Shown here one piece after another: positions 2,224-48,344 of a stretch of 64,000 bases of DNA. Source of the stretch: Actinophytocola algeriensis (GTDB lineage Bacteria; Actinomycetota; Actinomycetes; Mycobacteriales; Pseudonocardiaceae); contig NZ_JACHJQ010000002.1 of the NCBI RefSeq assembly GCF_014203735.1, positions 805,224 to 869,223 on the forward strand. Reading direction: 5' to 3'. Within the stretch, counting starts at the first letter, position 1, and every line of letters begins with the position of its first letter. Both the position numbers and the translations under genes were made by a program. The notes beneath the pieces were generated by a model. That model had not been told where the DNA came from. It saw only the letters and a list, made by a program, of their open reading frames with translations, and searched no databases.

Positions 2224-2615
2224 CGGGACCACTTCCCCACGTCCGCGATGGCGGTGTCGATCATGGACTCCAGGTCGGGACCCACCGACCGCAACTGCTC
2301 GAGGTCGACGCCGGCCGGGACGAGCCCCGCCATCAGCTCGCCGGTGGTCACCGCGGCCTGCCGCTGTGCGTCCGCGACCACCTCGACGATCTTCGCGCCG
2401 AGCTCCTTGGGCGCCATCTCGCGCCACCGCTTGCCGTTGAACGCCAGTTCCGTCAACCGGCCCTGACCGTCCACGGTGGCCTGGAGCATCCGGTCCTTGG
2501 ACGTCGCGGTCGCGGTGGCCTCGTGCATCTTCCCGAGTGCCGAGGCGATCTCACCCTGCTTGTCGCGCAGTTCGCGCATCGCCTCGGTCATCTCGTTCCC
2601 GAACGACGAGAACAT
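2220..2615 (-). CDS. YbaB/EbfC family protein
   Basis: This 131-residue protein starts MFSSFGNEM. An N-terminal amphipathic helix (MRELRDKQGEIASALGKMHEATATATSKD) precedes a segment with VDGQGRLTELAFNG, the pattern of YbaB/EbfC nucleoid-associated proteins. In actinomycetes, YbaB-like proteins are often found next to WXG100 and CpnT-like genes, as here, and may act as an ESX-associated folding or regulatory partner rather than as a global DNA-binding protein. Its stop overlaps the start of the next gene by 4 nt. It lies 9 nt after the large Asn/Gly-rich gene and is probably in the same transcript. Confidence 0.7.
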   Translation of the reverse strand: MFSSFGNEMTEAMRELRDKQGEIASALGKMHEATATATSKDRMLQATVDGQGRLTELAFNGKRWREMAPKELGAKIVEVVADAQRQAAVTTGELMAGLVPAGVDLEQLRSVGPDLESMIDTAIADVGKWSR

Positions 2616-2624
2616 GCCTGCCTC

Positions 2625-5465: not shown

Positions 5466-5491
5466 CACTCATCTCCTGTGACGTCGCGAGC

Positions 5492-7852: not shown

Positions 7853-7922
7853 CGAACTCTCCTTCCGATTCCACCGGCCCGGTCAGCGGGCCGTCATGGG
7901 GATACCGATGCAGCCGTGGGGG

Positions 7923-8213
7923 TCACTGGATGAAGATCTGCGCGCCCCGGTTGTCGCCCTGCTTGAAGATCTCGTGCACGTTGATCGACGAGACCGTGGT
8001 CGCGTTGATCTGCTGCACCATCTCCTGGTACGCGGCGTTCCACTTGGTCTGGTACTCGAGCCAGATCGGCTGGGCGCCACCCCAGGCGGCCGCGGGGATG
8101 TTGCGCAGTGCGGAGTTGAGGTCCTCGATGATGACACCGAGGTTGCCGACGGCCTTGTAGAGCTGTTCGTTGATCTCCAGGTAGCCGTTGTGGTTGACGT
8201 CGAACGCGGTCAT
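7923..8213 (-). CDS. WXG100 family protein (EsxA/EsxB-like)
   Basis: A 96-residue protein with two predicted helices joined by the turn AWGGAQ (WXG motif, about residues 43-48), which is diagnostic of WXG100 proteins. ATG 8213 has AAGGA upstream. No C-terminal YxxxD/E export motif is visible, so the partner or a larger substrate may supply it. It is immediately preceded by a second WXG100-length gene (41 nt gap), the usual heterodimer arrangement. It is expected to be exported by the adjacent EccBCD machinery. Confidence 0.9.
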   Translation of the reverse strand: MTAFDVNHNGYLEINEQLYKAVGNLGVIIEDLNSALRNIPAAAWGGAQPIWLEYQTKWNAAYQEMVQQINATTVSSINVHEIFKQGDNRGAQIFIQ

Positions 8214-8254
8214 GCTGGGTCCTTCCCGGAAGGTGAAGCGGACGGCGGCCGGTA

Positions 8255-8548
8255 CTACTTCGGCGCGCTGCTGGTCTCGGTCTCGACGTTGCGGTTGCTC
8301 TGCAGCAGGCCGCTGGCCTTGCCGTTCAGCTGCTCCAGCTCGGAGATGATCTTGGAGTAGTTCTGGTTCCAGTCGCTGAGCAGTCCGGCGAGCTTGACAC
8401 CGGAGGTCGAGTTGTTGACCGAGGGCAGTGCGCCCGCGAGGCTCATGACCGAGTTGTTCAGGTTCCGCATCTGGCCGATGCCGGTGTTGGTGGCGTTGAT
8501 GACCGACACCAGCATTCCGTCGTCGTAACCGTAGTTCGGGTTCGTCAC
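8255..8548 (-). CDS. WXG100-like protein, partner of the adjacent Esx protein
   Basis: 97 residues, GTG start 8548 with GGAGGAG upstream. It has two-helix composition, but the turn reads SDWNQN, so the Gly of WXG is replaced by Gln. A C-terminal tail rich in Glu/Thr/Ser follows. It sits 18 nt downstream of eccB and 41 nt upstream of the second WXG100 gene, consistent with an EsxA/EsxB pair. Confidence 0.85.
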   Translation of the reverse strand: MTNPNYGYDDGMLVSVINATNTGIGQMRNLNNSVMSLAGALPSVNNSTSGVKLAGLLSDWNQNYSKIISELEQLNGKASGLLQSNRNVETETSSAPK

Positions 8549-8566
8549 CGGATCTCCTCCTTGTTT

Positions 8567-9919
8567 CTATTCACTTGCGACTTGTTCGGGGATGTCGAGC
8601 ACGGGACCGGTCGGCAGCAGAGCGAGCAGCTCCGCCGGGACCAGCTCGGCCGCGTCCACCGAGAACCCGAGCGCCTCGGCTGCTTCGCCATCGGCCACGG
8701 GGAACTTCGCGCCCGCTTCGGTGATGAGGTAGACCCCGGCGCCCGGCACGCCCGGCGCGGGACGGGTGCGGGCGAGCATGCCCGCGCCGGGCGTGACCTC
8801 GACGAGGTCGGCGACCCGCCCGTCACGGGTGACGCCTGCCTGCGCGGTGTCCGGCGTGCCCGGCATGCCCGGCGCGGACACGAGCGTCGCCTGCTCGGAC
8901 TGCCACCGCACGCACGGCACCCGCTCGTCGGTGTCCACAGAGGCCGGTGGGCTGGCCGGGAGCTCGGTCTGCCACACCGGTGCGGGCAGCACGGTCTGGG
9001 TCGCGAGCTGTGCCGGGGTGATCGCGATCGCGGGCGGGGTCTGGTTCCCGGGGTCCGCGCCGAGCAGCGTCGCCACGGTGCGCGACACCGGGACCAGCCC
9101 GGCGGGCGCGACGACGAACGTCCTGTCCCCCACCGCGTCCGGCACCGTGACCAGCTGGCCGAGCACGGACGGCATGCCCGCGACGTCCGGACCGGGACCG
9201 CCGTGTGCCACCGGCGGCGAGCCGAGGTCGGGTCCCGACGGCAACGTGTTGAGCCACGCCGAGTCGACGGGCACCGCCGTCGCCGGGTCCATGCCGAGCG
9301 CGCGGGGCACCCAGTCACCGGTGACGCGCAGGCGGGTGCCCTGCCACGCCAGGTACAGCTCCTGGCCGACCCGTACGAGCACCGCGTGCTCGGCACCGAC
9401 CTCGGTCACGCCCGGCACGTCGCCGACGGTCACCGAGACCCCGGGGTCCTCATCGGACACACCGGCGCACACCATCCACGGCTTGCCGGAGACACCGACC
9501 GAGGGCAACGTGTCCGGGGCGCCCGGGATGCCGATCGGCGCGCCCTTGGGGAACTCCGCGAGGTCCTCGGCGCTGACCGACGCGACCGGCGGGTTGCCCT
9601 CCACGAGCAGTCGCGCCGACGCGTAGTTGAGCACCGGGCGCAGGCGGCCGTCGATGAGCAGGTAGCGGTTGCCGGAGTCCTCGTCCACGACGAGCGTGCC
9701 GGGCTCCTCCCGCCAGGAGTCGCTGCCCCGGCCGGAGAACAGGGCTACGATCAGGACGATCGCCATCACCACGATCGCGATGCCGATACCACCGGCCATG
9801 CCGACGGTGGTGCGGCGCAGTGGCCGGTCCGTCGCGTCGGGATCGGTGCGCAGCACCGCCGCGAGGATCCTGCCGACCACGAACGAGTGCGCCTCAACCT
9901 GCTCACGCCTGCCGTACAC
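8567..9919 (-). CDS. eccB: Type VII secretion protein EccB
   Basis: 450 residues, GTG 9919 with GGAGGG upstream. A cytosolic N-terminus (RREQVEAHSFVVGRILAAV, the usual EccB opening) precedes one transmembrane helix at about residues 41-65 and a long extracytoplasmic domain with repeated VxxExAExYLI-like segments. EccB is a core subunit of the ESX membrane complex with EccC, EccD and (in mycobacteria) EccE. The gene is 49 nt downstream of eccD and directly upstream of the WXG100 pair. Confidence 0.93.
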   Translation of the reverse strand: MYGRREQVEAHSFVVGRILAAVLRTDPDATDRPLRRTTVGMAGGIGIAIVVMAIVLIVALFSGRGSDSWREEPGTLVVDEDSGNRYLLIDGRLRPVLNYASARLLVEGNPPVASVSAEDLAEFPKGAPIGIPGAPDTLPSVGVSGKPWMVCAGVSDEDPGVSVTVGDVPGVTEVGAEHAVLVRVGQELYLAWQGTRLRVTGDWVPRALGMDPATAVPVDSAWLNTLPSGPDLGSPPVAHGGPGPDVAGMPSVLGQLVTVPDAVGDRTFVVAPAGLVPVSRTVATLLGADPGNQTPPAIAITPAQLATQTVLPAPVWQTELPASPPASVDTDERVPCVRWQSEQATLVSAPGMPGTPDTAQAGVTRDGRVADLVEVTPGAGMLARTRPAPGVPGAGVYLITEAGAKFPVADGEAAEALGFSVDAAELVPAELLALLPTGPVLDIPEQVASE

Positions 9920-9968
9920 GCTTGCCCTCCTTTCCCTTTCGGCACACGGTTGTCATGTCGGAAAAGGT

Positions 9969-11402
9969 TCACAGCCAGGTGGAGACGAGGCCGTAGAACC
10001 CGGTGACGGTGAGCGCGAGCGCCAGTACGGCGAGCGCGCAGAGCCAGTGCAGGATGTCGCCGAGACGACCCCAGCGCGGCACGAGCCGCCGCCCGGGCAG
10101 CACCTGCGCGCCTGCCACGGCGTTGCCCGCGAGGCCGAGGAGGCCGACGAGCACGCACACCTGGCCGAGCAGCGGCAGGTCCACGACCCAGCGCAGCAGG
10201 ATCGAGACGAGCACCGCGGCCGCCGGGACCATCGCGGAGAGCCGGTGCCAGATGCCCTGCATCTCCCGCGCCTGCAACAACAACAGGACGGCGACGACGA
10301 GACCGAGCGTCATCGTGTCCCACACCAGCTCGCTCGTGAGCACGAGCAACGCGCACGTGCCGATGGCGCCGAGGACGGCGAGGAACGAGGTGAGGTGCAC
10401 GTCGGCGAGCGCCGCGCGGTCGAGCACGTCCTTGCTGGGCAACGGGTCCAGCCCCTGCTGGAACTCCTCCGGTGTCGTCGGCACCGGCTCGGCGGCGAGC
10501 CCGGCGAGCCACGCCGCGAGCTGCGGCGCCGCCCTGGACACCGCGAGCACCAGCACCACGACGACGGCCGCGGTCGCCTGCGCGTCCAGCCCGATGAGCA
10601 TCCCGGTCATACACCCGATCGCGGCCAGCACCGCACCGGAGGTCACGGCGAGGAACCCCGGCTGCCCCACCCCGAGCGCCGCCCGCGCGACCGTGGCCGC
10701 CGCCGCGACGGCGACCACGGTGGCGAGCACACCCGCGCCGGTGAGCCACTCCCCTGCGGCGGCCGCACCGGCGGGCATCGCGAACCCGGCCACCCCCGCC
10801 GCGGCGACCCCGGTGGCGCCGAGCGTGATCGCCCCGCCGCGGTCGTCGAGCAGTCGCGCGAGGACGGTCCCGCCCCCGATCAACATGACCGCGACAGCAC
10901 ACGCGCTGATCGCGGTGGTCGTCCCGTCCGCGGCGAACACGGTGACCACGATCGCGAGCAACCCGCACAAGGCGGCGAGCCCGAGACACACCCGCCGGGT
11001 GATCACGGGCCGCCAGCTGTCGGTACGCGCGGACAGTCCGGTGTGGATCCCGTCGACGAGGTCGTCGAAGTCCGCGAGTGGCAGCTGGTCGTCGCGGGGC
11101 CGCAGGTGCAGCACGTCCCCGTCGTACAACCCGGCGGCGGCGATGCCGTGGTCCTCGTCCAGAGGTGCCTCACCGAGCCGCTGCAACACCCAGCCACCGT
11201 GCGCCAGCCCCGAGGTGGCGAGGGAGGGGTCGAGGTGCCCGAGCACGGTCGGCATGAGATCGGCGATCGGCACGTGGGCCGGTACGGCCAGTTCGACCCT
11301 CGACGTGGGGCCGCAGATCGTGAGCCTGCACATCTCGCCGGACCCGCCGGCCTGCGCGGTGGCCTGGGCTGTCGCAGGAGCGTTCTGGTTCATCGCCGCC
11401 AT
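9969..11402 (-). CDS. eccD: Type VII secretion integral membrane protein EccD
   Basis: 477 residues from ATG 11402 (ATG 11393 is also possible; a G-run lies just upstream). An N-terminal ubiquitin-like (YukD) domain at about 30-115 (CRLTICGPTSRVELAVPAHVP) is followed by about eleven hydrophobic helices. EccD forms the membrane barrel of the ESX channel. The frame extends further upstream, but that extension lacks coding character and would invade the divergent eccC promoter region. Confidence 0.92.
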   Translation of the reverse strand: MAAMNQNAPATAQATAQAGGSGEMCRLTICGPTSRVELAVPAHVPIADLMPTVLGHLDPSLATSGLAHGGWVLQRLGEAPLDEDHGIAAAGLYDGDVLHLRPRDDQLPLADFDDLVDGIHTGLSARTDSWRPVITRRVCLGLAALCGLLAIVVTVFAADGTTTAISACAVAVMLIGGGTVLARLLDDRGGAITLGATGVAAAGVAGFAMPAGAAAAGEWLTGAGVLATVVAVAAAATVARAALGVGQPGFLAVTSGAVLAAIGCMTGMLIGLDAQATAAVVVVLVLAVSRAAPQLAAWLAGLAAEPVPTTPEEFQQGLDPLPSKDVLDRAALADVHLTSFLAVLGAIGTCALLVLTSELVWDTMTLGLVVAVLLLLQAREMQGIWHRLSAMVPAAAVLVSILLRWVVDLPLLGQVCVLVGLLGLAGNAVAGAQVLPGRRLVPRWGRLGDILHWLCALAVLALALTVTGFYGLVSTWL

Positions 11403-11605
11403 ACCCCCCACACGGCACCCGTTCCGCCAGAGGTTCAGTCCCCTGGTGGCAGCCCGTTCCCAGGTTTCCGGCCCGGTTGTGAACGGTCCGGGCGGTCGTG
11501 CGCGCGTGGGTGAGTTCCGGGTGGCGTCCGAAGCGAGTGAACCCTCCGCGTGGGTTCGCGACGTGTACGTGGTGGACGGGCACCAGTAGCGAGGAGCGGA
11601 CCGCG
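11403..11605. promoter_or_regulatory. Divergent eccD/eccC intergenic region
   Basis: About 200 nt between two ESX genes transcribed apart must contain both promoters. GAGGAG (11591-11596) is the eccC ribosome-binding site, 9 nt before ATG. I could not assign clear -35/-10 boxes. Confidence 0.5.
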
Positions 11606-14600
11606 ATGACGACAACCCTGTTCCGCAGGCCGAGCCGGGAGCAGCCACCGGAGATGCCGAGCGGGGAGCTGTCGCTGCAGGAGCCTCCCGCCCTACCGGA
11701 GACCGTCGGCCGGGACTTCATGTCCGCGCTGATGATGTTGCCGATGATGCTCGGCAGCGGCGTGTTCATGCTGATCTACATCGCGCCCAACAACCCCGTG
11801 CTCGGGCTCGGCATGTTCGGGCTCATGGCGCTGATGGCGCTGATCATGTTCCTGGTCCAGCTGGCGCGTGGCGGCACCGAACGGCGCGGCCGGATGCGGG
11901 GCGAGCGGCGGGACTACCTGCGTTACCTCGGGCAGGTCCGCAAGCAGGTGCGGGCCGCCTCGACCCGGCAGCGGGAGTCGCTCGCGTGGCGGCACCCCGA
12001 TCCGAGCGGTCTGTGGTCCGTCGCGATGACCGGGCGGCTGTGGGAGCGGCGGGCCGCGCACGGGGACTTCGCCGAAGTGCGGGTCGGGACCGGGGCGCAG
12101 CGGCTCGCGGTGCGGATGAACCCGATGAACACCAAGCCGGTCTCCGACCTGGAACCGCTGTCCGCGCGGGCGTTGCGCCGGTTCATCAACGCGCACAGCA
12201 CGGTGCCCAACCTGCCGACGTCGCTGTTCCTGCGCGGGTTCGCGAAGGTGCGGTTCAGCGGCGACGGGGACGCGATCCGGGCGATGACCCGCGCGGTGCT
12301 CGCCCAGCTGGTCACGTTCCACTCGCCGGAGGACCTGCGGGTGGCGGTGTGCGCGGAGCCGGGACGGGTGCACCTGTGGGACTGGGTGAAGTGGCTGCCG
12401 CACGCCCAGCACCCCGTCGAGCAGGACGGCGCGGGCCAGGCCCGGTTGCTGGCCGACGGCGTGGACGCGCTCACCGAGCTGCTCGACGCGGAGCTCGGTG
12501 AGCGCGGCCGCTTCGAGGCCGCGTCCTCCCCCAGCGCCGAGGAGCCGTACGTCGTGATCGTGCTCGACGGGGTGGCGGTGCCGTCGGAGTCGCGGCTGGC
12601 GGGCACCGGCTACCGCAACTCCGTCGTACTGGACGTCTCCGGTGCGCTCACCAGCGCGGGCCGGACCACGCTGCGGCTGGACGTGGCCGGGGAACAGGTC
12701 GACATGCTGCGCACCGACCGCACAGGCCAGGAAGTCCGCACCAACCTGTGCACGCCGGACCTGATGAGCACGTCGAAGGCCGCGACGCTCGCGCGGATCA
12801 TCTCCCCGTACCGGCTGGGCGGCACCACCGACGTGGCCGAGCCCATGGTGGCGAACTTCGAGCTGCCGCAGCTCCTCGGCGTCACCGACGTCGACACGTG
12901 GGACCCGAGGACGCTCGCCCGCACCGGGCTGACCCGCGACCGGCTGCGGATCCCGTTGGGCATCACGGAGAACGGCGCGCCGATCGAGCTGGACATCAAG
13001 GAGTCCGCGCAGGGCGGCATGGGCCCGCACGGCCTGCTCATCGGCGCGACCGGCTCCGGCAAGTCGGAGCTGCTGCGCACGATGGTGCTCGGCATGGCGA
13101 TGACGCACTCGTCCGAGGTGCTGAACTTCGTGCTCGTCGACTTCAAGGGTGGCGCGACGTTCCTCGGCCTCGACCGGCTCCCGCACGTGTCCGCGGTGAT
13201 CACCAACCTGGCCGACGAGGCCACGCTGGTGACCAGGATGCAGGACGCGCTGCACGGTGAGATGGTGCGGCGCCAGGAGTTCCTGCGCGCGGCGGGCAAC
13301 TACAGCTCCCTGCTGGACTACGAGAAGGCGCGCCTGTCCGGCACCCCGCTGGACCCGCTGCCGACGCTGTTCGTGATCGTCGACGAGTTCTCCGAGCTGC
13401 TGGCGACCAACCCGGACTTCGGTGAGCTGTTCGTGATGATCGGCCGCCTCGGCCGGTCGCTGGGCGTGCACCTGCTGCTCGCCTCCCAGCGCATCGAGGA
13501 CGGCCGGATGCACAAGCTGGAGAGCCACCTCTCCTACCGCATCGGCCTGCGCACGTTCTCCGCGATGGAGAGCCGGTCGGTGATCGGTGTGCCGGACGCC
13601 TACCAGCTGCCGAGCGCGCCAGGCAACGGCTACCTGCGCAGCGACGTCGCGACCCTCATCCGGTTCAAGGCCGCGTACGTGTCCGGGCCGCACCGCCGCC
13701 GCACCCGCGAGCAGCGGCAGGAGGAGGTGCGGCGCCAGGTCGTCCCGTTCGGTGTCGGCAAGCTGCCGGTCACGATCACGTCGGCCCCGGCACCCGCGGC
13801 GCGTGTGCCGGAGGACGCCGAGACCGGCGACTCGGTGCTGTCGGTCGTGGTGGACAAGCTCGTCGGGCACGGCCCGCCGGCACACCAGGTGTGGCTGCCG
13901 CCGCTGGCCGACCCGCCGTCACTGGACCAGCTGCTGCCGCCGCTCGTGCCGGACCCCGTGCGCGGCCTGTCCGCGGCGGGCTGGCCGGGCTGCGGACGGC
14001 TGACCGTCCCGGTCGGTGTGGTGGACAAGCCGTTCGAGCAGAGCCGCGACCTGCACGTGGTCGACCTGGCGGGTCCCGGTGGGCACGTCGGCATCGCCGG
14101 TGGTCCCCAGTCCGGCAAGAGCAACCTGCTGCGCACCATGATCGCCGCCATCGCGCTCACCCACACCCCCGCGGAGACGCAGTTCTACTGCCTCGACTTC
14201 GGTGGCGGCACGCTCGCCGCGCTCGACGGGCTGCCGCACGTCAGCGGGGTCGCGGGCAGGCTGCAGGCCGAACGGGTCGCCCGCACGATCGCCGAGGTGC
14301 AGACGCTGCTCGCGGAGCGCGAGCAGGTCTTCGCCGAGCACGAGGTGGAGAGCATGGCCTCCTACCGGGAGCGGCGCGCGAAGGGCGAGTTCGCCGAGGA
14401 CCCGCACGGCGACGTGTTCCTCGTCGTGGACAACTGGGGCGCGCTGCGCTCGGAGTTCGAGCAGCACGACATGGCGCTGCGTGCGCTCGCGGGCCGCGGC
14501 CTCGCTTACGGCGTGCACCTGGTGCTCACCACGAACCGGTGGTCCGATGTGCACAGCCAGCTGCGCGACCAGCTCGGCACCCGCCTCGAGCTGCGGCTGG

Positions 14601-15556
14601 GCGACTCGATCGACTCGGTCATCAACATGCGCAAGGCGGCCGAGGTGCCGCAGATCCCCGGCCGGGGCATGACGTCGAACCAGATGCACTTCCTCGCCGG
14701 GGTGCCGCGCATCGACGGTGTCTCCGGCACCGTGGAGCTCTCCGAGGCCACCCGCGACCTCGCCGCGGCCGTCGCCGAGACGTGGTCCGGCCCAGGTGCG
14801 CCCGCGGTGCGGATGCTGCCCTCGGTGCTGCCGGCCGACGAGCTGCCCGCGCCGCTGCCGGGCCCGAAGGTGGCGCTGGGTGCCGGCGAGCTGGACCTGC
14901 AGCCGGTGTGGCACGACTTCGGCGACCGCCCACACCTCACGATCATCGGCGACAGCGGCAGCGGCAAGACCGCGGCGCTGCGCCTGATCACGAAGGCCAT
15001 CACCGCCGTGTTCACACCGGAGGAGGCGCAGATCCTGGTGGTCGACCCGCGACGCACGATCCTCGAGACCGTGCCGGACGCCTACCGGCGCGGCACCGCG
15101 GTGTCCGTGCCCGCCGCCGAGACGATGATCCGGGAGATCACCGCGGAGCTGCAGGAGCGGGTGCCCGGCACCGACATCACACCGGCGCAGCTGCGCAGGC
15201 GGGACTGGTGGAGCGGCCCGGAGATCTTCATCCTCGTCGACGACTACGACCTGCTGCTCGGTCCCGCGGGCGGTCCGTTCCAGTCCCTCGTGGAACTGGT
15301 ACCGCAGGCGGGTGACATCGGCCTGCACATGATCATGGCGCGGGCCGCGGCCGGGTCGAGCCGGTCGGCGATGGAGCCGGTGACGCGGCGACTGCAGGAG
15401 TCGAACACGCCCGAGCTGGCGCTGTCGATGCCGAGCACCGAGCTGCCGCTGCTCAACGGTGCGCGGGGCAGGCAGCTCCCACCGGGCCGCGCGGTGCTGG
15501 TCACCCGCCGGGACGGGGTCGGGCTGCAGATCGGGTGGACGGAGGAGCCGGCATGA
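11606..15556 (+). CDS. eccC: Type VII secretion ATPase EccC (three FtsK/SpoIIIE domains)
   Basis: 1316 residues as one uninterrupted EccCa-EccCb chain. Two transmembrane helices at about 35-80 and a DUF-type stalk domain precede three ATPase domains. Their P-loops are GATGSGKSE (about 480), GGPQSGKSN (about 832) and GDSGSGKTA (about 1115), each followed by a Walker B-like strand (for example FVIVDEF, FLVVDNW, FILVDDY). It drives substrate recognition and export; Esx C-termini bind the last ATPase domain in characterised systems. ATG 11606 follows GAGGAG. Its stop overlaps the mycP start (ATGA). Confidence 0.96.
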   Translation: MTTTLFRRPSREQPPEMPSGELSLQEPPALPETVGRDFMSALMMLPMMLGSGVFMLIYIAPNNPVLGLGMFGLMALMALIMFLVQLARGGTERRGRMRGERRDYLRYLGQVRKQVRAASTRQRESLAWRHPDPSGLWSVAMTGRLWERRAAHGDFAEVRVGTGAQRLAVRMNPMNTKPVSDLEPLSARALRRFINAHSTVPNLPTSLFLRGFAKVRFSGDGDAIRAMTRAVLAQLVTFHSPEDLRVAVCAEPGRVHLWDWVKWLPHAQHPVEQDGAGQARLLADGVDALTELLDAELGERGRFEAASSPSAEEPYVVIVLDGVAVPSESRLAGTGYRNSVVLDVSGALTSAGRTTLRLDVAGEQVDMLRTDRTGQEVRTNLCTPDLMSTSKAATLARIISPYRLGGTTDVAEPMVANFELPQLLGVTDVDTWDPRTLARTGLTRDRLRIPLGITENGAPIELDIKESAQGGMGPHGLLIGATGSGKSELLRTMVLGMAMTHSSEVLNFVLVDFKGGATFLGLDRLPHVSAVITNLADEATLVTRMQDALHGEMVRRQEFLRAAGNYSSLLDYEKARLSGTPLDPLPTLFVIVDEFSELLATNPDFGELFVMIGRLGRSLGVHLLLASQRIEDGRMHKLESHLSYRIGLRTFSAMESRSVIGVPDAYQLPSAPGNGYLRSDVATLIRFKAAYVSGPHRRRTREQRQEEVRRQVVPFGVGKLPVTITSAPAPAARVPEDAETGDSVLSVVVDKLVGHGPPAHQVWLPPLADPPSLDQLLPPLVPDPVRGLSAAGWPGCGRLTVPVGVVDKPFEQSRDLHVVDLAGPGGHVGIAGGPQSGKSNLLRTMIAAIALTHTPAETQFYCLDFGGGTLAALDGLPHVSGVAGRLQAERVARTIAEVQTLLAEREQVFAEHEVESMASYRERRAKGEFAEDPHGDVFLVVDNWGALRSEFEQHDMALRALAGRGLAYGVHLVLTTNRWSDVHSQLRDQLGTRLELRLGDSIDSVINMRKAAEVPQIPGRGMTSNQMHFLAGVPRIDGVSGTVELSEATRDLAAAVAETWSGPGAPAVRMLPSVLPADELPAPLPGPKVALGAGELDLQPVWHDFGDRPHLTIIGDSGSGKTAALRLITKAITAVFTPEEAQILVVDPRRTILETVPDAYRRGTAVSVPAAETMIREITAELQERVPGTDITPAQLRRRDWWSGPEIFILVDDYDLLLGPAGGPFQSLVELVPQAGDIGLHMIMARAAAGSSRSAMEPVTRRLQESNTPELALSMPSTELPLLNGARGRQLPPGRAVLVTRRDGVGLQIGWTEEPA

Positions 15557-16698
15557 GGATGGTCCTGATCGGTGCGATCCTGGGCGTGACGGCCGCGTTC
15601 ACCCCGGTGCTCCCCGCCGCGGCACAGCCACAGCCGCCGGTCGGCCAGTGCACGCCGCCGTCGGAGACCCCGATCACGCGCGAATCCTGGGCGCAGCAAC
15701 GGATGGACGCCGCACGGGCGTGGCCGCTGACGCGCGGTGACGTGATCGTCGGGGTCGTCGACACCGGCGTCAGCGCGTCGACACCGGCGCTCGCTGGGGC
15801 CGTGCTGCCCGGCACGGACCTCGTCGGCGGTCCTGGCGACGACGACTGCTTCGGCCGCGGCACGTTCATCGCGGCGCTGATCGCCGCGCGCGAGAGCGAC
15901 AACCCGGACGTCCCGTTCACCGGGATCGCGCCGGACGCGCGGATCTTCCCGGTCCGGGTCAGCGACGACCCGCCCAAGATCCAGGACCACGCCGGGCTCG
16001 CCCGCGCGATCGGCGACGGGATCAGGGCGTCGGTCGACGGCGGCGCCCGGGTGGTCGCGGTCGGTCTGGTGGCCACGCTGGACATGCCGGAGCTGCGGGC
16101 CGCGGTCGCGTACGCCGCCGAGCGGGACGTGCTGGTCATCGCGTCCGCGTCGGTGCCGAAACGGGGCCAGCTCGCCCTGCCCGCGCGCATCCCGGGGGTG
16201 ATCGCGGTGGCGCCGGTCGGGCCGCAGGGGCCGCTCACCTCGCCGATCTACGGCGCGGACCCGACACTCGCCGCACCGGCACAGGACCTGATCGGTGTCG
16301 CGCCGCGCGGCGCGGGGCACCGGATGGCGTCCGGCCCCGAGCTGGCGGTGGGGTACGTGGCCGGGACGGCCGCGCTGGTGCGCTCCTACTACCCCGCGAT
16401 GTCGGCACGCGAGGTCGCCGAGCGGCTGATGGGCACCGCCGACCACCCGTCGACCCCGTTGCCGAACAAGCTGATCGGGTACGGCGTGGTCGACCCGTTC
16501 TCGGCGGTCACGATCGTCCAGAACCTCGACACGGCACCGACCCCGGCGGCGGAGGACCTGACCGTCCCCAAGCCGCCGACACCGGACGAGGCACCCGCGA
16601 ACAAGGCGCTGTGGCTCGCGGGTGGTGTCACGGCGGCAGCGCTGCTGCTGGCGGGCCCCACGATCGCCGCGGCCGCACGTCGCCGCCGCGCCACCTGA
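15553..16698 (+). CDS. mycP: Mycosin-like subtilase MycP, catalytically degenerate
   Basis: 381 residues: signal peptide 1-24, subtilase fold, and a C-terminal transmembrane helix at about 355-375 followed by Arg residues, the standard MycP layout. The catalytic Asp is present (GVVDTGV, Asp70). The HGT motif reads FGRGT, with Arg102 in place of His (CGC). The GTSxAAP serine motif reads SGPELAVGYVAG, with Glu263 in place of Ser (GAG). The oxyanion Asn position is Val201. It is therefore predicted proteolytically dead. Published work on mycobacterial mycosins reports a structural role separable from protease activity, which would explain retention. The start overlaps the eccC stop, so the two are co-translated. 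Confidence 0.88.
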   Translation: MRMVLIGAILGVTAAFTPVLPAAAQPQPPVGQCTPPSETPITRESWAQQRMDAARAWPLTRGDVIVGVVDTGVSASTPALAGAVLPGTDLVGGPGDDDCFGRGTFIAALIAARESDNPDVPFTGIAPDARIFPVRVSDDPPKIQDHAGLARAIGDGIRASVDGGARVVAVGLVATLDMPELRAAVAYAAERDVLVIASASVPKRGQLALPARIPGVIAVAPVGPQGPLTSPIYGADPTLAAPAQDLIGVAPRGAGHRMASGPELAVGYVAGTAALVRSYYPAMSAREVAERLMGTADHPSTPLPNKLIGYGVVDPFSAVTIVQNLDTAPTPAAEDLTVPKPPTPDEAPANKALWLAGGVTAAALLLAGPTIAAAARRRRAT

Positions 16699-16803
16699 GC
16701 CCGGCCACAGCGCCTTCTCCGCAGAGGTCACGCTGGAGTCCCGCTCTTGCCGATGTACACAGTGGACCGTCTGCGCGGCGTCGCGCGGAACGTGCCGCGA
16801 CAG

Positions 16804-16820
16804 CAGCGGCGTCGCCGCTG
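16804..16820. terminator. Short GC hairpin after mycP
   Basis: CAGCGGCGTCGCCGCTG is a perfect 17-nt palindrome about 105 nt after the mycP stop. It could end the eccC-mycP transcript, but the stem is short and lacks a T-tract. Confidence 0.35.
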
Positions 16821-16931
16821 CACAACCGCTGAACGATCGCTGGAGTGGCACTGTTCGGCCGCTTGTGAGCGCGCCCGTACCCGTCGATGCTCGAAACGGA
16901 AGCGCTCTTTCGCCAGGAAACGGAGACGCCC

Positions 16932-17840
16932 GTGACAGGGTTAGCGACGGAACCGAAGCAGTCGACGCGCAACGGCAAGGCCGTGGCGTGGAGCGTGGTC
17001 GCGGGCATCCTGCTCGCCATCCTGTGGTCGTACGAGTTCGTCGACAGCGTGATCGGCGACAACGTGGCGAACACACTGCTCGGCCACGAGGCGAAGTCCA
17101 CCCCGATCGTCGGCACCGGCGCGGGGCTGCTGTTCGCGTTCGTCTCCGGTTTCGCGGGCACGTTCACCGCGTGCAACATCGCGATGGCGGCGTCTGTCGG
17201 GCCGATGAGCCAGGCCGGCCAGGGATCGCGCACCGACACGCTGCGTGCGCTGATCCGGCCCCTCGGCGCGTTCACCGCGGGCATGGTGACGGTGTCGGCC
17301 GTGTACGGCTTCGTCGGCGTCCTGCTCGGCGACTCGCTCCCCCAGCTGTCGACGGCGATGGTCGGCGAGATGCCGGTGCGGCTGATCCAGTCGTCGGTGG
17401 TGTTCGGGATCGTGGGACTGGCGTTCGTGTACCTCGGCCTGGCCGCACTGGGCGTGGTGCGGGACATCTTCGCCGACCGCCCGACCGCCCGCGTCGTCGT
17501 ACTCGGCGCGCTGGTGGGCGCGTTCCTGATCGGACGGCCGTACCCGATGTTCGTCAAGCTGTTCAACTGGGCCGCGGAGACCGGCAACCCCCTGTACGGC
17601 GCAGCGACGTTCGCCCTGCAGTCGCTCGGCAACATCGTGATCGTGACCGTGTTGTTCGCCCTGCTGATCCTCGGCACCCGGGGACGGTTCCTGACCTGGC
17701 TGGCAGGCAGCCCGCGCCGGATGAGCATGGTGAGCGGAACACTGCTGCTGGCACTGGGCGTGTTCACGGTCGTCTACTGGGACCTGCGCGTGCCGTCGAT
17801 CTTCGGCTTCGGGTGGTTCCCGGAGATGCCGTACAACTAG
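16932..17840 (+). CDS. Polytopic membrane protein, possibly CcdA/DsbD-like
   Basis: 302 residues from GTG 16932, with GGAG about 8 nt upstream; an in-frame ATG at 16887 lacks a ribosome-binding site. There are about seven to eight hydrophobic helices. The segment AGLLFAFVSGFAGTFTACN resembles the first helix of the CcdA/DsbD/LysE-type transporters, but the usual Pro-Cys is replaced and only one Cys is visible there, so thiol chemistry is doubtful. The stop codon TAG is the IS630 insertion point; the same TAG exists with or without the element, so the protein is not altered. Confidence 0.7.
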   Translation: MTGLATEPKQSTRNGKAVAWSVVAGILLAILWSYEFVDSVIGDNVANTLLGHEAKSTPIVGTGAGLLFAFVSGFAGTFTACNIAMAASVGPMSQAGQGSRTDTLRALIRPLGAFTAGMVTVSAVYGFVGVLLGDSLPQLSTAMVGEMPVRLIQSSVVFGIVGLAFVYLGLAALGVVRDIFADRPTARVVVLGALVGAFLIGRPYPMFVKLFNWAAETGNPLYGAATFALQSLGNIVIVTVLFALLILGTRGRFLTWLAGSPRRMSMVSGTLLLALGVFTVVYWDLRVPSIFGFGWFPEMPYN

Positions 17841-19035
17841 TGGTGCGTCAGGCAACCTTGGTTGGGTAATGGGTCCAGGTTCGGATGGGTGAGTCGGTGG
17901 CGAACGCGGTCTTGGGTTGGGCGCGGGCGTTGCGCCAGCGGATGTAGCCCTCGATCGCGGCGTTCTGTTCCTCGTGACTGCGGTGATCGGTGCCGTTGAG
18001 CGCGAAGTAGCGCAGGGCGGCGAACTCGGCCTCGATCCAGTTCAACCAGGAGCCGTAGGTCGGCAGGAACACCAACTCGACCTGGTGGTCGGCGCACCAG
18101 GTGCAGACCTTGGGGTGGCGGTGCGGGGAGAAGTTGTCGCAGACGACATACAACTTGTCTTCAGGCCAGCGGGTGCGCAGGATCTTGAGCAGGTCAAGGA
18201 ACTCGCGGTGGCGTTTGCGGTCCCGGATTCGGTAGAAGATCTTCCCGGTCGCCAGGTCCAGCGCGGCGAGCATGTGCATCACTCCGCCGTGGCGGTTGTA
18301 GGTCGCCCGCTGGCGCGCCGGCTTGGTGACCGGGCGCCAGGCTTTCCCTTTGCGGGGCTGGAGGTTCAACGGCCCGAACTCGTCCACGCAGACCACACGC
18401 CCGTCAGCGGGTGGGTGGTCGTAGAGGTCGAGGACACGGTGCATCTTCGCGATGAAGTCCGGATCCGTGGAGGCCTTCCAGGTCGTGGTGGTCTGCCACG
18501 AAACACCACCAGCGTGCAGGATCCGCCGCAGTGTCTCCCGGCTGATCGCCGCGACCGTGCCCCGGCCGATCAGATGCTCACGCAGCTTGGCCAGCGACCA
18601 CGTGGAGAACGCGGTGATGCCCCAGTCGGCGGGGGACGTCCTGGCGATCAGGCAGATCCGTTCCCGGATCTGCTCACCGATCACCTTCGGGCGTCCCCCG
18701 CTCCATTTTGGGTCCAGCGCGTCGAACCCCCGCTCGTTGAACGCGTGGATCACATCCCGCACATACTCGGCGCTGACCTGCAGCAACGAGGTGATGTCCC
18801 GAACCGTCTGACCTTGGCCGGACATCATGACGACGATCGCCCGCCGCAACCGGACCGGATCCTTGCTGGTTCTGGTCACACGCTGCAGCTTGCGGCCTTC
18901 CTCCATCGACAGTGCCCGGACGAACACCTCGGGTCGACGAGCCACAACCACCTCCCGCACTCGATCTGCAGGAGACAGCCTGACTCACCACCACCAAGAT
19001 CAATTACCGGGTCAACCTACTGAGACGAGCCACTA
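17838..19035. mobile_element. IS630-family insertion sequence (about 1.19 kb) with TA target duplication
   Basis: The element occupies about 17840-19033 between two TA dinucleotides (17838-17839 and 19034-19035). The ends form imperfect inverted repeats sharing the blocks GTGG, CGTC, GGTTG and GGTAAT. Removing it restores ACAACTAGTTGT, a 12-nt palindrome centred on CTAG, which matches the known preference of IS630 for CTAG with TA duplication. It holds one intact transposase gene. Confidence 0.88.
17848..18945 (-). CDS. IS630-family DDE transposase
   Basis: About 365 residues from GTG 18945, placed 5 nt after GGGAGG (GTG 18960 is an alternative giving 370). An N-terminal helix-turn-helix region (QTVRDITSLLQVSAEYVRDVIHAF) is followed by the RNase H-like DDE domain, with catalytic acidic residues in VCVDEFGPL, VVCDNFSPHRHPK and GSWLNWIEAEFAAL (the last Glu). 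The frame is intact from start to stop, so the element could be mobile. Confidence 0.95.
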   Translation of the reverse strand: MARRPEVFVRALSMEEGRKLQRVTRTSKDPVRLRRAIVVMMSGQGQTVRDITSLLQVSAEYVRDVIHAFNERGFDALDPKWSGGRPKVIGEQIRERICLIARTSPADWGITAFSTWSLAKLREHLIGRGTVAAISRETLRRILHAGGVSWQTTTTWKASTDPDFIAKMHRVLDLYDHPPADGRVVCVDEFGPLNLQPRKGKAWRPVTKPARQRATYNRHGGVMHMLAALDLATGKIFYRIRDRKRHREFLDLLKILRTRWPEDKLYVVCDNFSPHRHPKVCTWCADHQVELVFLPTYGSWLNWIEAEFAALRYFALNGTDHRSHEEQNAAIEGYIRWRNARAQPKTAFATDSPIRTWTHYPTKVA

Positions 19036-43498: not shown

Positions 43499-44368
43499 AT
43501 GACAACTCCGAGAGTCGCACTGGTCACCGGGGCCACCCAGGGGCTGGGCCTGGCGCTGGTCGAAGGGCTCGCCCACCGCATGGCGCCCCACGACACCGTC
43601 TACCTCACCGGGCGCGACCTGACCCGCGTCACCGAGGCCGTCGACGCCGTGCCCGGCGGCGGCGCGCAGGTCCGCGGCGAACTGCTCGACGTGGCCGACC
43701 CCCACGCGGCGGCCCGCCTCGCACGACAGCTGCGGGACCGGCACGGCGGTGTCGACATCGTGTTCGGCAACGCCGTGATGCGGGTCGGGCCGGACGACGA
43801 CCCGCGCGCGGTCATCGAGCAGTACACCGAGGTGAACAACTTCGGCACCACGCGGCTGCTGCGGGCGTTCGCGCCGCTGGTGCGGGACGGCGGACGGCTC
43901 ATCGTCGTGGCCAGTTCGCTCGGCACGCTGCACCAGCTCGCCCCAGTGCTGCACCGCCGGTTCGACGGCCTGCCGTCACTGGACGAGGTGGACCGGCAGG
44001 TCGCGGCCTGGCGCGACGCGGTCAAGGACGGCAGCGCCCGTGCGGGCGCGTGGCCCGGCTTCGTCAACATCCCGTCGAAGATCGCCCAGGTCGCCGCCGT
44101 GCGGACGCTGGCGTCACAGCGGCGCGAGCGGGATGCCGAGCGCGGCGTCCTCGTCGCGGCTGCCTGCCCGGGGATGCTGAACACCCCGACTTCCGCGCTG
44201 TGGTGGGACGTCAGCGCCGCGGCCAGTCCCGCAGAGGGCGCGGTCGCGTTGCTGGACCTGGCCTTCGACCCGGCCAGGCCCGGCCAGTACGGCGAACTGG
44301 TCCGTCACGGGGAGGTCGTGCCCTGGTCGTCGCTCGCCTTTTCCGCGGGGCCGGTCCACGCGACCTGA
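43499..44368 (+). CDS. Carbonyl-reductase-like SDR lacking the catalytic Tyr
   Basis: 289 residues. The cofactor motif TGATQGLG is at about 11-18 and the catalytic Ser is in VVASSLG. In the YxxxK position the sequence is WPGFVNIPSK: Asn190 stands where Tyr is expected and Lys194 is kept (codon AAC versus TAC). NNAG is altered to FGNAV. It may be inactive as a reductase or may bind NAD(P) as a sensor. Its last 64 nt overlap the convergent gene that ends at 44305. Confidence 0.88.
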   Translation: MTTPRVALVTGATQGLGLALVEGLAHRMAPHDTVYLTGRDLTRVTEAVDAVPGGGAQVRGELLDVADPHAAARLARQLRDRHGGVDIVFGNAVMRVGPDDDPRAVIEQYTEVNNFGTTRLLRAFAPLVRDGGRLIVVASSLGTLHQLAPVLHRRFDGLPSLDEVDRQVAAWRDAVKDGSARAGAWPGFVNIPSKIAQVAAVRTLASQRRERDAERGVLVAAACPGMLNTPTSALWWDVSAAASPAEGAVALLDLAFDPARPGQYGELVRHGEVVPWSSLAFSAGPVHAT

Positions 44369-46062
44369 ACGAGCCGCCTGCCCGACAGGCGGTCGAGCGC
44401 GACGGCCCGCCCCGGCATCAGCGCCGACGGCCAGACCTCGCCCAGCAGCGGGCCTTCGCGCAGATCGCCGTTGCCGACGAGGCCGGGCGTCGACACGTCC
44501 CGCAGCGCCTCGACCACAGTGTCCCCGGCCGCCGCACCCTCGGTGCTCCTGACCAGCACGAGGTGCAGGCCGACGTCCTTCGCCTGCGGCACGAACTCGC
44601 GCAGCGGTTCGAGGAGGTCCTCCCCTCGGTGCCGCGTCAGCTCGTGGTCGTCGACGACGATGAACAGGTCGGGGCCCTTCCACCACGTGCGGTTCTTCAG
44701 CTGTTCGGCCGTCACGTGCGGGCCGGGAAGCCGTTTCCTGAGCGAGTTGCGGACATCGACGAGCATGTCCTTCAGCTGCTCGGCCCGCACCGCGTACGCG
44801 AGGAGGTGCTTGGTGTCGAGGTAGCCGCGCAGACCGCGCCGGAAGTCGACGAGCAGGATGACGGCTTCCTTGTCGGTGTAGCGGTCGACGATCCCGCGCA
44901 GGATGGTGCGCACGAGGGTGGTCTTGCCGGACTTCGGCCCCATGAACGCCACGAAGTGGGGGTCGACGGCGAAGTCCAGCCCCGCGGTCCCCCCGTCGCT
45001 GACGCCGATGGGCACGAGCTTCTCGCGGGACGCGGCGATGTCGGCGTAGGCCACGTGCGTCGGCAGCGAGGTCAGCGCCTTCACCGTGTCCGGCGGGAGT
45101 TCCGCGAACGGCACGGCGTCGAACACGGCCTCGTCGAAGCCCGCGGTCGCGGCGAACGTCGCGCCGTCGAACCGCGGCCCGCCCGCGAACCGCGCGGCGG
45201 TGAAGACGGCGTCCGCGCTGAACATCGCCGACTCGAACACCGCCGGTCCGTCGAACCGCGTGGCGCCGAAGCCGGCCGCGCCGGTGAACGTGGCCGCCTC
45301 GAACGTGACGTCCCCGGCGAAGACCGTGCGGGCGAACCGCGCGTCGTCGACGAAGGTCGCGGCCCGGAAGGTCGCCGACCGGACCCGGCAGTTCGCCAGG
45401 TCGAACCCGAGGAGGCTCGCCCCGGACAGGTCGAGGTCGATGTCCGGCCAGAAGGCCCGGTCCTCCCGCAGGTGCGTGGCGAGGATCGCGCCCGCGGCTT
45501 CGCGGACCCGCTGCTGCGGCTGCCGCGCCGTGTCCACATCGGCCGCCGCGTCGGTGAACATGCGCAGGTACGCGCAGAGGACGTTCACGATGGTCTGGCG
45601 CTGGTCCACATTGCCCTGCCCGAGCCGTTCCAGCGCGTACAGCCCGCCGAGCTGGACCGGGAGCTTGTCGGACCCGAGCTGGTCGACGGCCCTGGTGTAC
45701 AGCTCGGTCACGCGGCGCTCGGTGGCGTTGAGGCGGACGTCCTCGGCCACGCGTTCCTGGAGCTCGTGTGTCCTGGTGACCGCGAGCTGGTCGAGGTCCT
45801 TCTGTTTCAGGGCGATCTCGGCGGTCCGCTGCCTGCGGGCGGCAAGTAGCAACGCCACCGCACCACCGGTGCCGATCACGATCGTGCCCGCGGTCCTGAT
45901 CGCCTCGAGCTGGTTGCGCTGCTGCGCGTCCCCGCCCCCGAACGCCAGCAACAACCACACCGCCACCGCGACGCCCACCACCACGACCACGCCGGTGGCC
46001 GCCCAGATCATCCTGATGGACAGGACTTTGTAGTGCGGTGTGTCTCCCCCGTCGGTCACCAT
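44305..46062 (-). CDS. Membrane pentapeptide-repeat protein fused to an EccC-type FtsK/SpoIIIE ATPase domain
   Basis: 585 residues. Two transmembrane helices (about 18-42 and 60-78) precede a helical region with RRVTELYTRAVDQLGSDK, common in actinobacterial pentapeptide-repeat proteins. Pentapeptide repeats run from about 208 to 320 (ATFRAATFVDDARFARTVFAG). The last 220 residues match the third ATPase domain of the EccC in this window: P-loop GPKSGKTT (about 374), TAEQLKNRTWWKGPDLFIVVDDHEL against EccC [25 protein letters not shown], then EFVPQAKDVGLHLVLVRS. I know of no described protein with this architecture. A role in binding or steering type VII substrates is inference. Confidence 0.88.
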   Translation of the reverse strand: MVTDGGDTPHYKVLSIRMIWAATGVVVVVGVAVAVWLLLAFGGGDAQQRNQLEAIRTAGTIVIGTGGAVALLLAARRQRTAEIALKQKDLDQLAVTRTHELQERVAEDVRLNATERRVTELYTRAVDQLGSDKLPVQLGGLYALERLGQGNVDQRQTIVNVLCAYLRMFTDAAADVDTARQPQQRVREAAGAILATHLREDRAFWPDIDLDLSGASLLGFDLANCRVRSATFRAATFVDDARFARTVFAGDVTFEAATFTGAAGFGATRFDGPAVFESAMFSADAVFTAARFAGGPRFDGATFAATAGFDEAVFDAVPFAELPPDTVKALTSLPTHVAYADIAASREKLVPIGVSDGGTAGLDFAVDPHFVAFMGPKSGKTTLVRTILRGIVDRYTDKEAVILLVDFRRGLRGYLDTKHLLAYAVRAEQLKDMLVDVRNSLRKRLPGPHVTAEQLKNRTWWKGPDLFIVVDDHELTRHRGEDLLEPLREFVPQAKDVGLHLVLVRSTEGAAAGDTVVEALRDVSTPGLVGNGDLREGPLLGEVWPSALMPGRAVALDRLSGRRLVQVAWTGPAEKASDDQGTTSP

Positions 46063-46121: not shown

Positions 46122-48344
46122 TCAGAAGCAGGCGCAGCTGCCGTCGCCCGGTTCGCTGCCGTAGCCGCCGGCGTCGGTGTCGCCGCCGTAACCGCCGGTA
46201 TCCGTGTCGCTGCCGGTGTCGGTCGAGCCGCTGTAGCCCGCGTTGCCTTCCGGGCCGTCGCCGACGTCGGTGCTGGACGGGTCGGTGTCGTTCTGGTTCG
46301 GCGTCGAGTCGGCGGAGCCGCTGAGGCCATCGCCGTCGGCGTCGCCGTAGCCACCGGAGTCCGAAGTGGACGAATCAGATCCGGTGCCGGAGTCACCGCC
46401 GTAGCCGGAGTCGGCGCCGGTGTCCGAGCCGGAGTAGCCTCCGGAATCAGCGGCCGAGTCAGCGCCGGAGTAGCCGCCCGCGCCGGAGCCGGAGTCGGCC
46501 CCGGCATCCGAGCCGGAGTAGCCGCCCGAATCAGCGCCGGAGTCCGAACCAAGGCCCGAGTCGGAACCGACACCGGAGTCCGAGCTACCGACACCGGAGT
46601 CCGAGCTGGAGTCGGAGCCGGAGCCCGAGTCAGAGCCGAGGCCGGAGTCCGCGGCGGAGCTGGAATCCGTTGCGGAGCTGGAGTCCGTGGCCGAGTCCGA
46701 ACCGGAGTCGCTGCCGCCGTAGCCCTCCCCGCCCTCCGGGCCGTCACCGATGTCGCTGCTCGACGGATCCGTGTCGTTCTGGTTCGGCGTCGCGTCCGCC
46801 GAACCGGTCAGGCCATCGCCGTCCGCGTCGGCGCCGCCGTCGCTACCCGGCCCGGCGTAGCCCTCCCCGCCCTCCGGACCGTCACCGATGTCGCTGCTCG
46901 ACGGATCCGTGTCGTTCTGGTTCGGCGTCGCGTCCGCCGAACCGATCAGGCCGTCGGCGTCCGGGTCGGGGCCCGCGTAGCCTTCGCCGCCCTCCGGGCC
47001 GTCACCGATGTCCGAGCTTGCCGGATCCGTGTCGTTCTGGTTCCACGTGGCGTCGTCGCGGTCGGGGATGCCGTCCTCGTCGTGGTCGGCGTTCTGGTCG
47101 TCGCTCGCGGGCGGGCTCGTGGGCTCCGGGGTGTCGACGCGGTCGCTCGGGTAGCCCTTGCCGCCCTCCGGGCCATCGCCGACGTCCGGGCTCGACGGAT
47201 CGGTGTCGTTCTGGTTCCAGGTGCGGTCTTCGGCGTCGGGGATGCCGTCGTGGTCGCGGTCCGGCAGGGCGGCGCGGCGCGCGGCCTCCGCCGCGTCCGC
47301 GCGTTGCCGCGCCCGCTCCTGTGCCTCCCGGTACTGGGACTCCTGGCGGTTCTGCGCCCGCCACGCGTCCTGCTGCTCCTTCGCGGCGCGCTGCTGCTCG
47401 GCCCAGCTCTCCTTGGCTCGGTCGACCTCCTCCGGCGTGGGCAGCGGCTGGGGCGCCGGGCGGATCTCCTTGTCGATGCTGATCCCGCCGCTCCAGTCGA
47501 ACCAGTCGAACCAGTCCGACCAGCCGCCCGGCTCCTTCTGCTGCCGCGGCTTCTCCTCGGTCTTCGGCGCAGGCCCCTTCACCTCCGGTGTCGGGCGCTC
47601 CTCTGTCGGGTCGACCGGCGTGGTGGTGTCGATCGTGGCGCCGCCGGGCAGTTGGGTGGACGTGCTGAAGCCGTCCGGCAGGCCGACGTCCACCGTGCCG
47701 TCGGCGTTACGGGTGACCGTCACGTCCATCTCGTAGCTGGTGCCGTCCGGTGTGGTGACCGTGCCCTTCGCTTTGTAGCTGCCCGTCACCTCCCCCTCCG
47801 GCGACAGGTTGAGCGACAGCGTCGACGAGAACTCACCATTCTCGCCCAGGTCGATCTTCACGGTGCCGTTGGCGTTGATGCCGTCCGGTTTCGGCGCGAT
47901 GCCGGTGAACTGCGGACCGCTCGGCTTCCCGACCCGCACCCCGCCGCTGACGTACCAGCTGCCGCTGTACGGGTCGTACGCGATCGTGCCGGTGACCGAC
48001 ACGCCCTTCCTGACCGGCACCCCACCGGAGATGCCGATCCCGTCCGGTGCGGGCGACGCCTCCCAGAAGCTGGCGCCGCGGGCCTTCATCTCGGTCACTA
48101 CTTCCTGCTGCCGCAGGGAGTCCTCGCCCGCCACGCGGGCGAGCTCGTTGCTCAGCTCCTGGTCGGTCATGGTGCGGACATCGGTGGCCGGCGCGGGCCG
48201 CGCGTCCTCTGTGGACGTCGTACCGACGGGCTCCGGGTCGGCCGCCGCGACCCCCGCGGACAGTCCCATACCGACGGTCGTGATGGCCGCACCGAACAAC
48301 ATTCTCTTGGTCACCCCGAGTGGGTGACCTGATTTCTTCGCCAT
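46122..48344 (-). CDS. Secreted protein with Ca-binding-type (thrombospondin-3-like) and Ser-Asp repeats
   Basis: 740 residues from ATG 48344 (GAGAGGGA upstream). Signal peptide 1-35 ends GVAAADP. Residues about 50-250 form a beta-rich domain (VSVTGTIAYDPYSGSWYVSGGVRV). A coiled-coil stretch rich in Gln/Arg/Ala follows at about 310-350. The rest has five units DxDxDGIPDxxDxTWNQNDTDPSSxDxGDGPEGG, typical acidic Ca loops, and a long SD/SG-rich tract. It ends GDGSCACF. It probably is a wall-exposed or released Ca-stabilised protein; no sortase motif is seen. Confidence 0.78.
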   Translation of the reverse strand: MAKKSGHPLGVTKRMLFGAAITTVGMGLSAGVAAADPEPVGTTSTEDARPAPATDVRTMTDQELSNELARVAGEDSLRQQEVVTEMKARGASFWEASPAPDGIGISGGVPVRKGVSVTGTIAYDPYSGSWYVSGGVRVGKPSGPQFTGIAPKPDGINANGTVKIDLGENGEFSSTLSLNLSPEGEVTGSYKAKGTVTTPDGTSYEMDVTVTRNADGTVDVGLPDGFSTSTQLPGGATIDTTTPVDPTEERPTPEVKGPAPKTEEKPRQQKEPGGWSDWFDWFDWSGGISIDKEIRPAPQPLPTPEEVDRAKESWAEQQRAAKEQQDAWRAQNRQESQYREAQERARQRADAAEAARRAALPDRDHDGIPDAEDRTWNQNDTDPSSPDVGDGPEGGKGYPSDRVDTPEPTSPPASDDQNADHDEDGIPDRDDATWNQNDTDPASSDIGDGPEGGEGYAGPDPDADGLIGSADATPNQNDTDPSSSDIGDGPEGGEGYAGPGSDGGADADGDGLTGSADATPNQNDTDPSSSDIGDGPEGGEGYGGSDSGSDSATDSSSATDSSSAADSGLGSDSGSGSDSSSDSGVGSSDSGVGSDSGLGSDSGADSGGYSGSDAGADSGSGAGGYSGADSAADSGGYSGSDTGADSGYGGDSGTGSDSSTSDSGGYGDADGDGLSGSADSTPNQNDTDPSSTDVGDGPEGNAGYSGSTDTGSDTDTGGYGGDTDAGGYGSEPGDGSCACF
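46250..47220. repeat. Five dispersed copies of an NQNDTDPSS..GDGPEGG coding repeat
   Basis: Copies start near 46250, 46740, 46870, 46990 and 47170. The segment gacggatccgtgtcgttctg recurs verbatim in several copies, showing recent duplication. Confidence 0.8.

Follow-up and report, generated by a model that had tools for sequence, protein, structure and literature searches.

The genome of Actinophytocola algeriensis encodes a two-helix pentapeptide-repeat membrane protein that ends in the third ATPase domain (D3) of EccC, the motor ATPase of the T7SSa, and this protein is a real, rare joining of two known families. Its architecture and the identity of its D3 are clear, and the matches behind them far exceed chance. 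The sequences of five copies indicate that the fusion protein probably arose once and is under selection, and they also make a tie to ESX-4 plausible. What might such a protein do? Our tentative proposal, to which we give somewhat less than an even chance, is that it is a membrane-tethered, motor-less mimic of the EccC4 D3, born of one fusion event, that tunes, and most likely restrains, ESX-4 secretion.

Architecture of the fusion protein

The stretch of DNA analysed, hereafter the window, is 64,000 nucleotides long, and the parts of the fusion gene are listed in Table 1. The encoded protein is 58–65% identical to copies in four other genomes. It matches the Pfam family Pentapeptide_3 (PF13576) at E 2.2e-13, with 50.6 bits against a cut-off of 27, and this score above the cut-off, together with the repeat strands of an AlphaFold2 model, identifies it as a pentapeptide-repeat protein. 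The model places helices at residues 16–41, 46–63 and 66–129 and short strands at about 209–316, after which comes an alpha/beta domain; the repeat stretch of about 106 residues corresponds, by arithmetic, to about 21 repeats. The two membrane helices and roughly 20 repeats described in an earlier, sequence-only reading are thus borne out by the model helices, the repeat count and the Pentapeptide_3 match. The RRQR motif that follows the two hydrophobic helices suggests, by the positive-inside rule and without a prediction tool, that both ends of the protein lie in the cytosol.

Table 1. Features of the pentapeptide–EccC D3 fusion gene, in window coordinates
Feature	Position	Strand	Remarks
Fusion gene (P0001)	44305..46062	minus	585 aa, ATG start, open reading frame without internal stop
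Membrane part, residues about 16–75	45838..46017	minus	Two hydrophobic helices, then RRQR; from sequence and model helices
Helical linker, residues 76–200	45463..45837	minus	Common to standalone pentapeptide proteins; motif VTELYTRAVDQLGSDKLPVQLGGLYALERL
Pentapeptide-repeat solenoid, residues 209–317	45112..45438	minus	About 21 repeats; PF13576 and model strands
EccC third ATPase domain (D3), residues 323–572	44347..45096	minus
P-loop, residues 374–382	44917..44943	minus	MGPKSGKTT
Putative signal-pocket strand/helix and proposed inter-subunit protrusion, residues 421–466	44665..44802	minus	Mapped by alignment from EccCb1–EsxB (PMC6954902, available part)
Walker B, residues 466–472	44647..44667	minus	LFIVVDD; DD invariant in 5 fusions and 44 EccC D3s
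Position of the GGAxR loop of EccC D3, residues 506–515	44518..44547	minus	Basic residue absent in 5/5 fusions

The membrane helices, helical linker and repeats are common to the fusion and to standalone two-helix pentapeptide membrane proteins of the Actinomycetota (PF13576 family), whose tail is replaced by D3 in the fusion. Over residues 1–212, three fusions are 41–67% identical to 40 sampled relatives, one of which is the contig C5 chimera described below. No further domain was recognised by eye, without a family search, in the C-terminal sequence of 11 standalone relatives, and a BLAST of 43 loci found EccC beside pentapeptide relatives only in the C5 chimera. The standalone relative nearest to the three fusion N-termini (L068; 62–67% over residues 1–212) is plasmid-borne, on pPmurDSM45305 of Prauserella muralis.

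The C-terminal domain and its closest EccC

The nearest known proteins are EccC and EccCb (TIGR03924, TIGR03925), and especially the D3 of ESX-4-type EccC. BLASTP aligns the fusion protein with the EccC encoded in the window (11498-15556) at 36% identity over 210 columns (E 2e-32), and phmmer against the PDB retrieves the EccC of T. curvata (4nh0) at E 2e-59, with query residues 296–569 as the best stretch. The NCBIfam EccCb model TIGR03925 matches at E 2.1e-61 over its C-terminal half only (positions 285–564 of 564); the score of 207.9 bits lies under the full-length cut-off of 346.55, as a lone D3 would lead one to expect. TIGR03924 gives no match at E up to 1. In other words, the DUF and ATPase domains 1 and 2 (D1 and D2) of EccC are missing from the fusion by NCBIfam, and the pentapeptide solenoid stands in their place; the fusion also differs from EccC in having membrane helices from another family, in lacking the basic residue of the GGAxR loop and in lying outside an ESX locus.

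Is the domain perhaps an unrelated ATPase? The Pfam FtsK model PF01580 scores 15.6 against a cut-off of 24 bits in the window fusion and exceeds the cut-off in two of three other fusions tested, and a PADLOC defence-family search returned only mad8 (E 3e-10), which covers residues 362–506 of the ATPase core and not the whole protein. A grouping with FtsK or HerA was ruled out, the domain being nearer to EccC by sequence and fold, and in a tree built without FtsK or HerA rows the fusion D3 falls among the EccC D3s, apart from EccC D2. NCBIfam, phmmer, fold and tree thus agree on a third FtsK/SpoIIIE-like ATPase domain of EccC type. The earlier claim that the protein ends in the last EccC ATPase domain therefore holds, and of the two aligned strings quoted for it, one is present in the fusion protein and the other in the window EccC.

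That reading had aligned the domain with the window EccC; the match is real, but the closest EccC of the same genome lies elsewhere, on contig C11, with 55% identity to the fusion D3 as against 37% for an EccC on contig C3 and 36% for the window EccC. The C11 EccC adjoins genes for EccD, EspG, an S8 mycosin and two WXG100 proteins (L060, 1737-2045 and 2103-2390), as well as for ribosomal S9 and a GlmM-like member of the phosphoglucomutase family, and from this synteny, which is that of ESX-4, we take the locus to be ESX-4. Across the five fusions, D3 identity is 33–38% to the window EccC and 41–59% to 23 ESX-4-type EccCs, a set that was picked by similarity and tree position, is not one supported clade and had its neighbour genes checked at the C11 locus of the window genome only. 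On these identities the window ESX locus was rejected as the source of D3, and the suggested link between the fusion and that locus is not supported. Where the fusions meet the EccC D3s, the tree singles out no EccC as their sister, so that the probable descent from an ESX-4-type EccC is read from identity and path length.

The ESX genes recognised in the window lie at about 2.2–16.7 kb, some 28 kb from the fusion gene. The locus spans 2220-18960 and holds YbaB-like, LXG-like (below cut-off), EccB, EccD, EccC and S8 mycosin genes, and at 17848-18960 a DDE_3 transposase gene, presumably IS630-like. Two small proteins at 7923-8548, put forward earlier as WXG100 proteins and partners for an interaction test, match neither Pfam WXG100 nor any NCBIfam family, although one has a WGG motif by eye; they are not the best first partners, since the ESX-4-type EccC on C11 resembles the fusion D3 more closely than the window EccC does.

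Distribution and genomic surroundings

Full-length fusions were found in five of 390 family genomes (profile of five fusions, E up to 1e-110): the window genome and four of 80 Amycolatopsis genomes. The search across the family proposed in the sequence-only reading thus shows that the architecture is not widespread, and full-length EccC genes, including an ESX-4-like one, are present in all five carriers. The remaining five genomes of the genus Actinophytocola yielded no full-length fusion; one of them, G003, has a single D3 fragment of ambiguous class at a contig edge. Beyond the window genome's copy, no full-length fusion appeared in 397 order genomes (queried with two fusions) or in 394 class genomes, both of which are samples that may lack other carriers. 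The family, order and class searches scored the best three candidates per genome and the Amycolatopsis search the best 16, so that weaker fusions could be missed. None of 198 matches to two short peptide patterns on viral contigs encodes a relative of the fusion. Plasmid origin was considered and set aside: at E up to 1e-20, partial matches to the protein occur in 46 plasmid records, none of which covers 80% of it. A Tsukamurella plasmid match was set aside as a candidate for another orphan D3, being placed within about 3 kb of its record's end, and genes that cross the start of a record are unlisted. The available portions of PMC6954902, PMC7159879, PMC9436818, PMC11154593, PMC11217815, PMC12419801 and PMC4900558 contain no description of a pentapeptide–EccC D3 fusion.

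The fusion gene does not lie in an ESX locus with eccB, eccD and mycP. In the window it shares 64 bases with the end of a short-chain dehydrogenase gene and is preceded, 59 bases upstream on the same strand, by a gene for a secreted repeat protein (46122-48344, minus; 740 aa), which has a signal-peptide-like start and, by eye, repeated Asp-rich, calcium-binding-like units, and which matched nothing in Pfam (E up to 0.01). The region is variable, since four of five congeners lack a match to the dehydrogenase at E up to 1e-40. The neighbours of the G282, G642, G643 and G663 copies differ from the window's; the G663 copy, for example, overlaps a MurJ-family gene by 11 bases. A recurring operon partner was sought by BLAST of heuristic gene calls and none emerged between the window and the four carrier regions, nor was any ESX gene recognised near these four copies from the starts of the neighbours' sequences, one neighbour having been family-searched. 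This absence of a recurring neighbour and of a recognised ESX gene beside the other copies counts against a mimic of the EccC4 D3, as does the absence of the protein from most family genomes. Three Amycolatopsis fusions (L074, L075, L076) lie near a gene that we take to be rlmN-like, a common neighbour that reads as shared ancestry; the fusions are 73–78% identical and the rlmN-like genes 95.7–97.0%, hinting at fast adaptive or relaxed evolution.

Origin and selection

In a tree of 49 D3 rows, with four EccC D2s as outgroup, the five fusion D3s form one clade (support 99/99); so do the five fusion N-termini in a tree of 45 rows (99/97). The deep order is alike in both trees, G282 first, then G000, then G642, G643 and G663 with unsupported inner order, and the two parts have therefore probably stayed together since a single fusion. 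Although G282 is an Amycolatopsis, it branches outside a group (99/91 and 99/92) made up of the window copy (G000) and the remaining Amycolatopsis copies, a pattern that hints at transfer between genera or at old duplication and loss.

Ratios of dN/dS were obtained by Nei–Gojobori counting with our own script, some of them being rough because dS is high (up to 2.07); they lie below 1 in all 30 pairwise comparisons (10 pairs for each part), at 0.11–0.30 for the N-terminal part, 0.27–0.59 for the repeats and 0.29–0.48 for D3, and at 0.10–0.73 for the EccC4 D3 of the carrier genomes. The fusion D3 has a much higher dN than the EccC4 D3 for G643/G642 (0.163 vs 0.022) and a slightly raised one for two further pairs (0.178 vs 0.131; 0.189 vs 0.134), and the two are close between genera, for G000/G643 (0.305 vs 0.292). 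The faster change may reflect loosened constraint, which would speak against a mimic of the ESX-4 domain.

The window genome has a second chimera. On its contig C5 (L131, 9569-11466), a pentapeptide membrane protein runs into EccC D1, matching TIGR03924 positions 407–673 at E 2.8e-110. The reading frame shifts near the junction, so the gene is either broken or affected by a sequencing error; VDDF stands in its Walker B in place of the VDEF of two full-length EccCs compared, and its N-terminus falls in another clade than the five fusion N-termini. At E up to 1e-100, the 390 family genomes yielded no further pentapeptide–D1 fusion; apart from the two C5 pieces, the D1 matches listed all lie in EccC-length frames. 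With this independent D1 chimera beside the D3 fusion, EccC domains have been captured by the pentapeptide scaffold family at least twice. A broader idea, that actinomycetes repeatedly detach single EccC ATPase domains (D3 and, independently, D1) onto pentapeptide membrane scaffolds as motor-less decoys that control T7SS, we regard as doubtful.

Could the fusion be gene debris, a chance joining with little function in slow decay? Its rare and patchy occurrence, the broken frame of the D1 chimera and D3 dN/dS values that are not low would fit, but the gene is intact in five genomes of two genera with dN/dS below 1 in both halves, and the letters of the nucleotide site are kept although 46 of 101 EccC4-invariant sites are altered in at least one fusion. 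We consider such decay improbable.

Residues kept and lost in D3

The available part of PMC6954902, on mycobacterial ATPase3 domains, describes binding of the EsxB tail to ATPase3 of EccCb1, gives the EccCb1 residues that hold the tail and ATP, and proposes a protrusion for hexamer contact, which covers part of stretch 421–473 of the fusion. With the pocket and ATP residues transferred to the fusions by alignment, SGKT, DD and DxR/K are kept in all five; at the position of the first Walker A Gly, the fusions carry M or L and the 23 ESX-4-type EccCs carry A, M or S. Three groupings of sites, all chosen post hoc from the alignment so that P is indicative only, reach P 0.03–0.04: six of eight pocket-lining residues are invariant among the fusions vs 86 of 224 background sites (P 0.038); the five pocket sites invariant in the 23 ESX-4-type EccCs are all kept in every fusion, vs 50 of the 96 remaining invariant sites (P 0.044); and stretch 421–473 retains 21 of 29 invariant sites vs 34 of 72 elsewhere (P 0.027). 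A fourth post hoc grouping, the pocket set plus two contact residues, is not significantly above background (6/10 invariant; P 0.14, again indicative), which counts against the mimic. The basic residue of GGAxR is Arg in 42 of 44 EccC D3s; each of the five fusions has A, G or E there, in a loop with an indel where the exact register is uncertain; as to an arginine finger, the word arginine is absent from the available text of PMC6954902. On modest statistics, this pattern agrees with a domain that binds cargo or the ring but does not act as a motor.

An ESX-independent switch is another way to read these residues: D3 would be a nucleotide-binding module that alters assembly of the pentapeptide membrane scaffold, with Esx proteins uninvolved. 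The kept SGKT, DxR/K and DD, the fast divergence of D3 in some pairs and the lack of recognised ESX genes nearby all favour it, but neither the five EccC4-invariant pocket sites nor the 11 of 15 invariant sites kept at 445–464, in the proposed inter-subunit protrusion, have an obvious use in a bare nucleotide switch, and an ESX-4-like EccC is present in every carrier, though many non-carriers have one too. We judge this switch somewhat unlikely, though a serious contender.

Proposed function

Taken together, the kept nucleotide letters, pocket and protrusion and the missing D1, D2 and GGAxR residue agree with a binding module and not a motor, and with the membrane tether these traits lead us to favour an EccC4 D3 mimic that restrains secretion. 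The D3 of an ESX-4-type EccC would have been fused once onto a common actinobacterial two-helix pentapeptide membrane protein; held in the cytosol, it would bind ATP, and its pocket, judging by the conserved residues, would recognise the C-terminal signal of Esx cargo. Without D1, D2 and the GGAxR basic residue the protein presumably cannot drive transport; it would instead hold cargo or dock on the EccC4 D3 ring, and ESX-4 secretion would thereby be tuned, most likely downwards.

A close parallel is the T7SSb of S. aureus, where, in the available parts of PMC9436818 and PMC5994694, EssC variants with swapped D3 present the domain as a portable cargo-selectivity module; there D3 remains inside a complete EssC motor, whereas the D3 of the fusion is motor-less. 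EssC without D3 is dominant-negative according to the available text of PMC9436818, which by analogy makes interference by partial EccC-like proteins plausible, and no more. The same text discusses D3 as a cargo-recruiting or cargo-selectivity domain and reports that isolated EssC D2 binds cargo too, so D3 is not the sole possible cargo site. Might the fusion act positively, gathering ESX-4 cargo at the membrane for EccC4 or adding the signal specificity of its D3 to the ring? Such an adaptor would draw on the same conservation data as the mimic, on this discussion of D3 in EssC and on a modelled layout, two membrane helices and then a cytosolic D3, that resembles EccC; set against it, most family genomes (all but the 5 of 390) do without the protein, and a recurring cargo gene beside the fusion was not found in the carrier regions. 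We think an adaptor quite unlikely.

Outlook

Judging by their sequences, a few soil bacteria possess a membrane protein with a motor-less, putatively substrate-recognising D3 tail that may catch cargo or disturb the T7SS motor. The C-terminal EccC ATPase is thought to read the Esx export signal, and within EccC this role is hard to separate from the motor; a natural membrane-anchored D3 outside the motor, present in several species, would offer a convenient means of splitting signal recognition from transport. If the fusion does bind cargo or the ring of EccC, it would represent a new form of T7SS regulation, exerted from outside the system's own locus.
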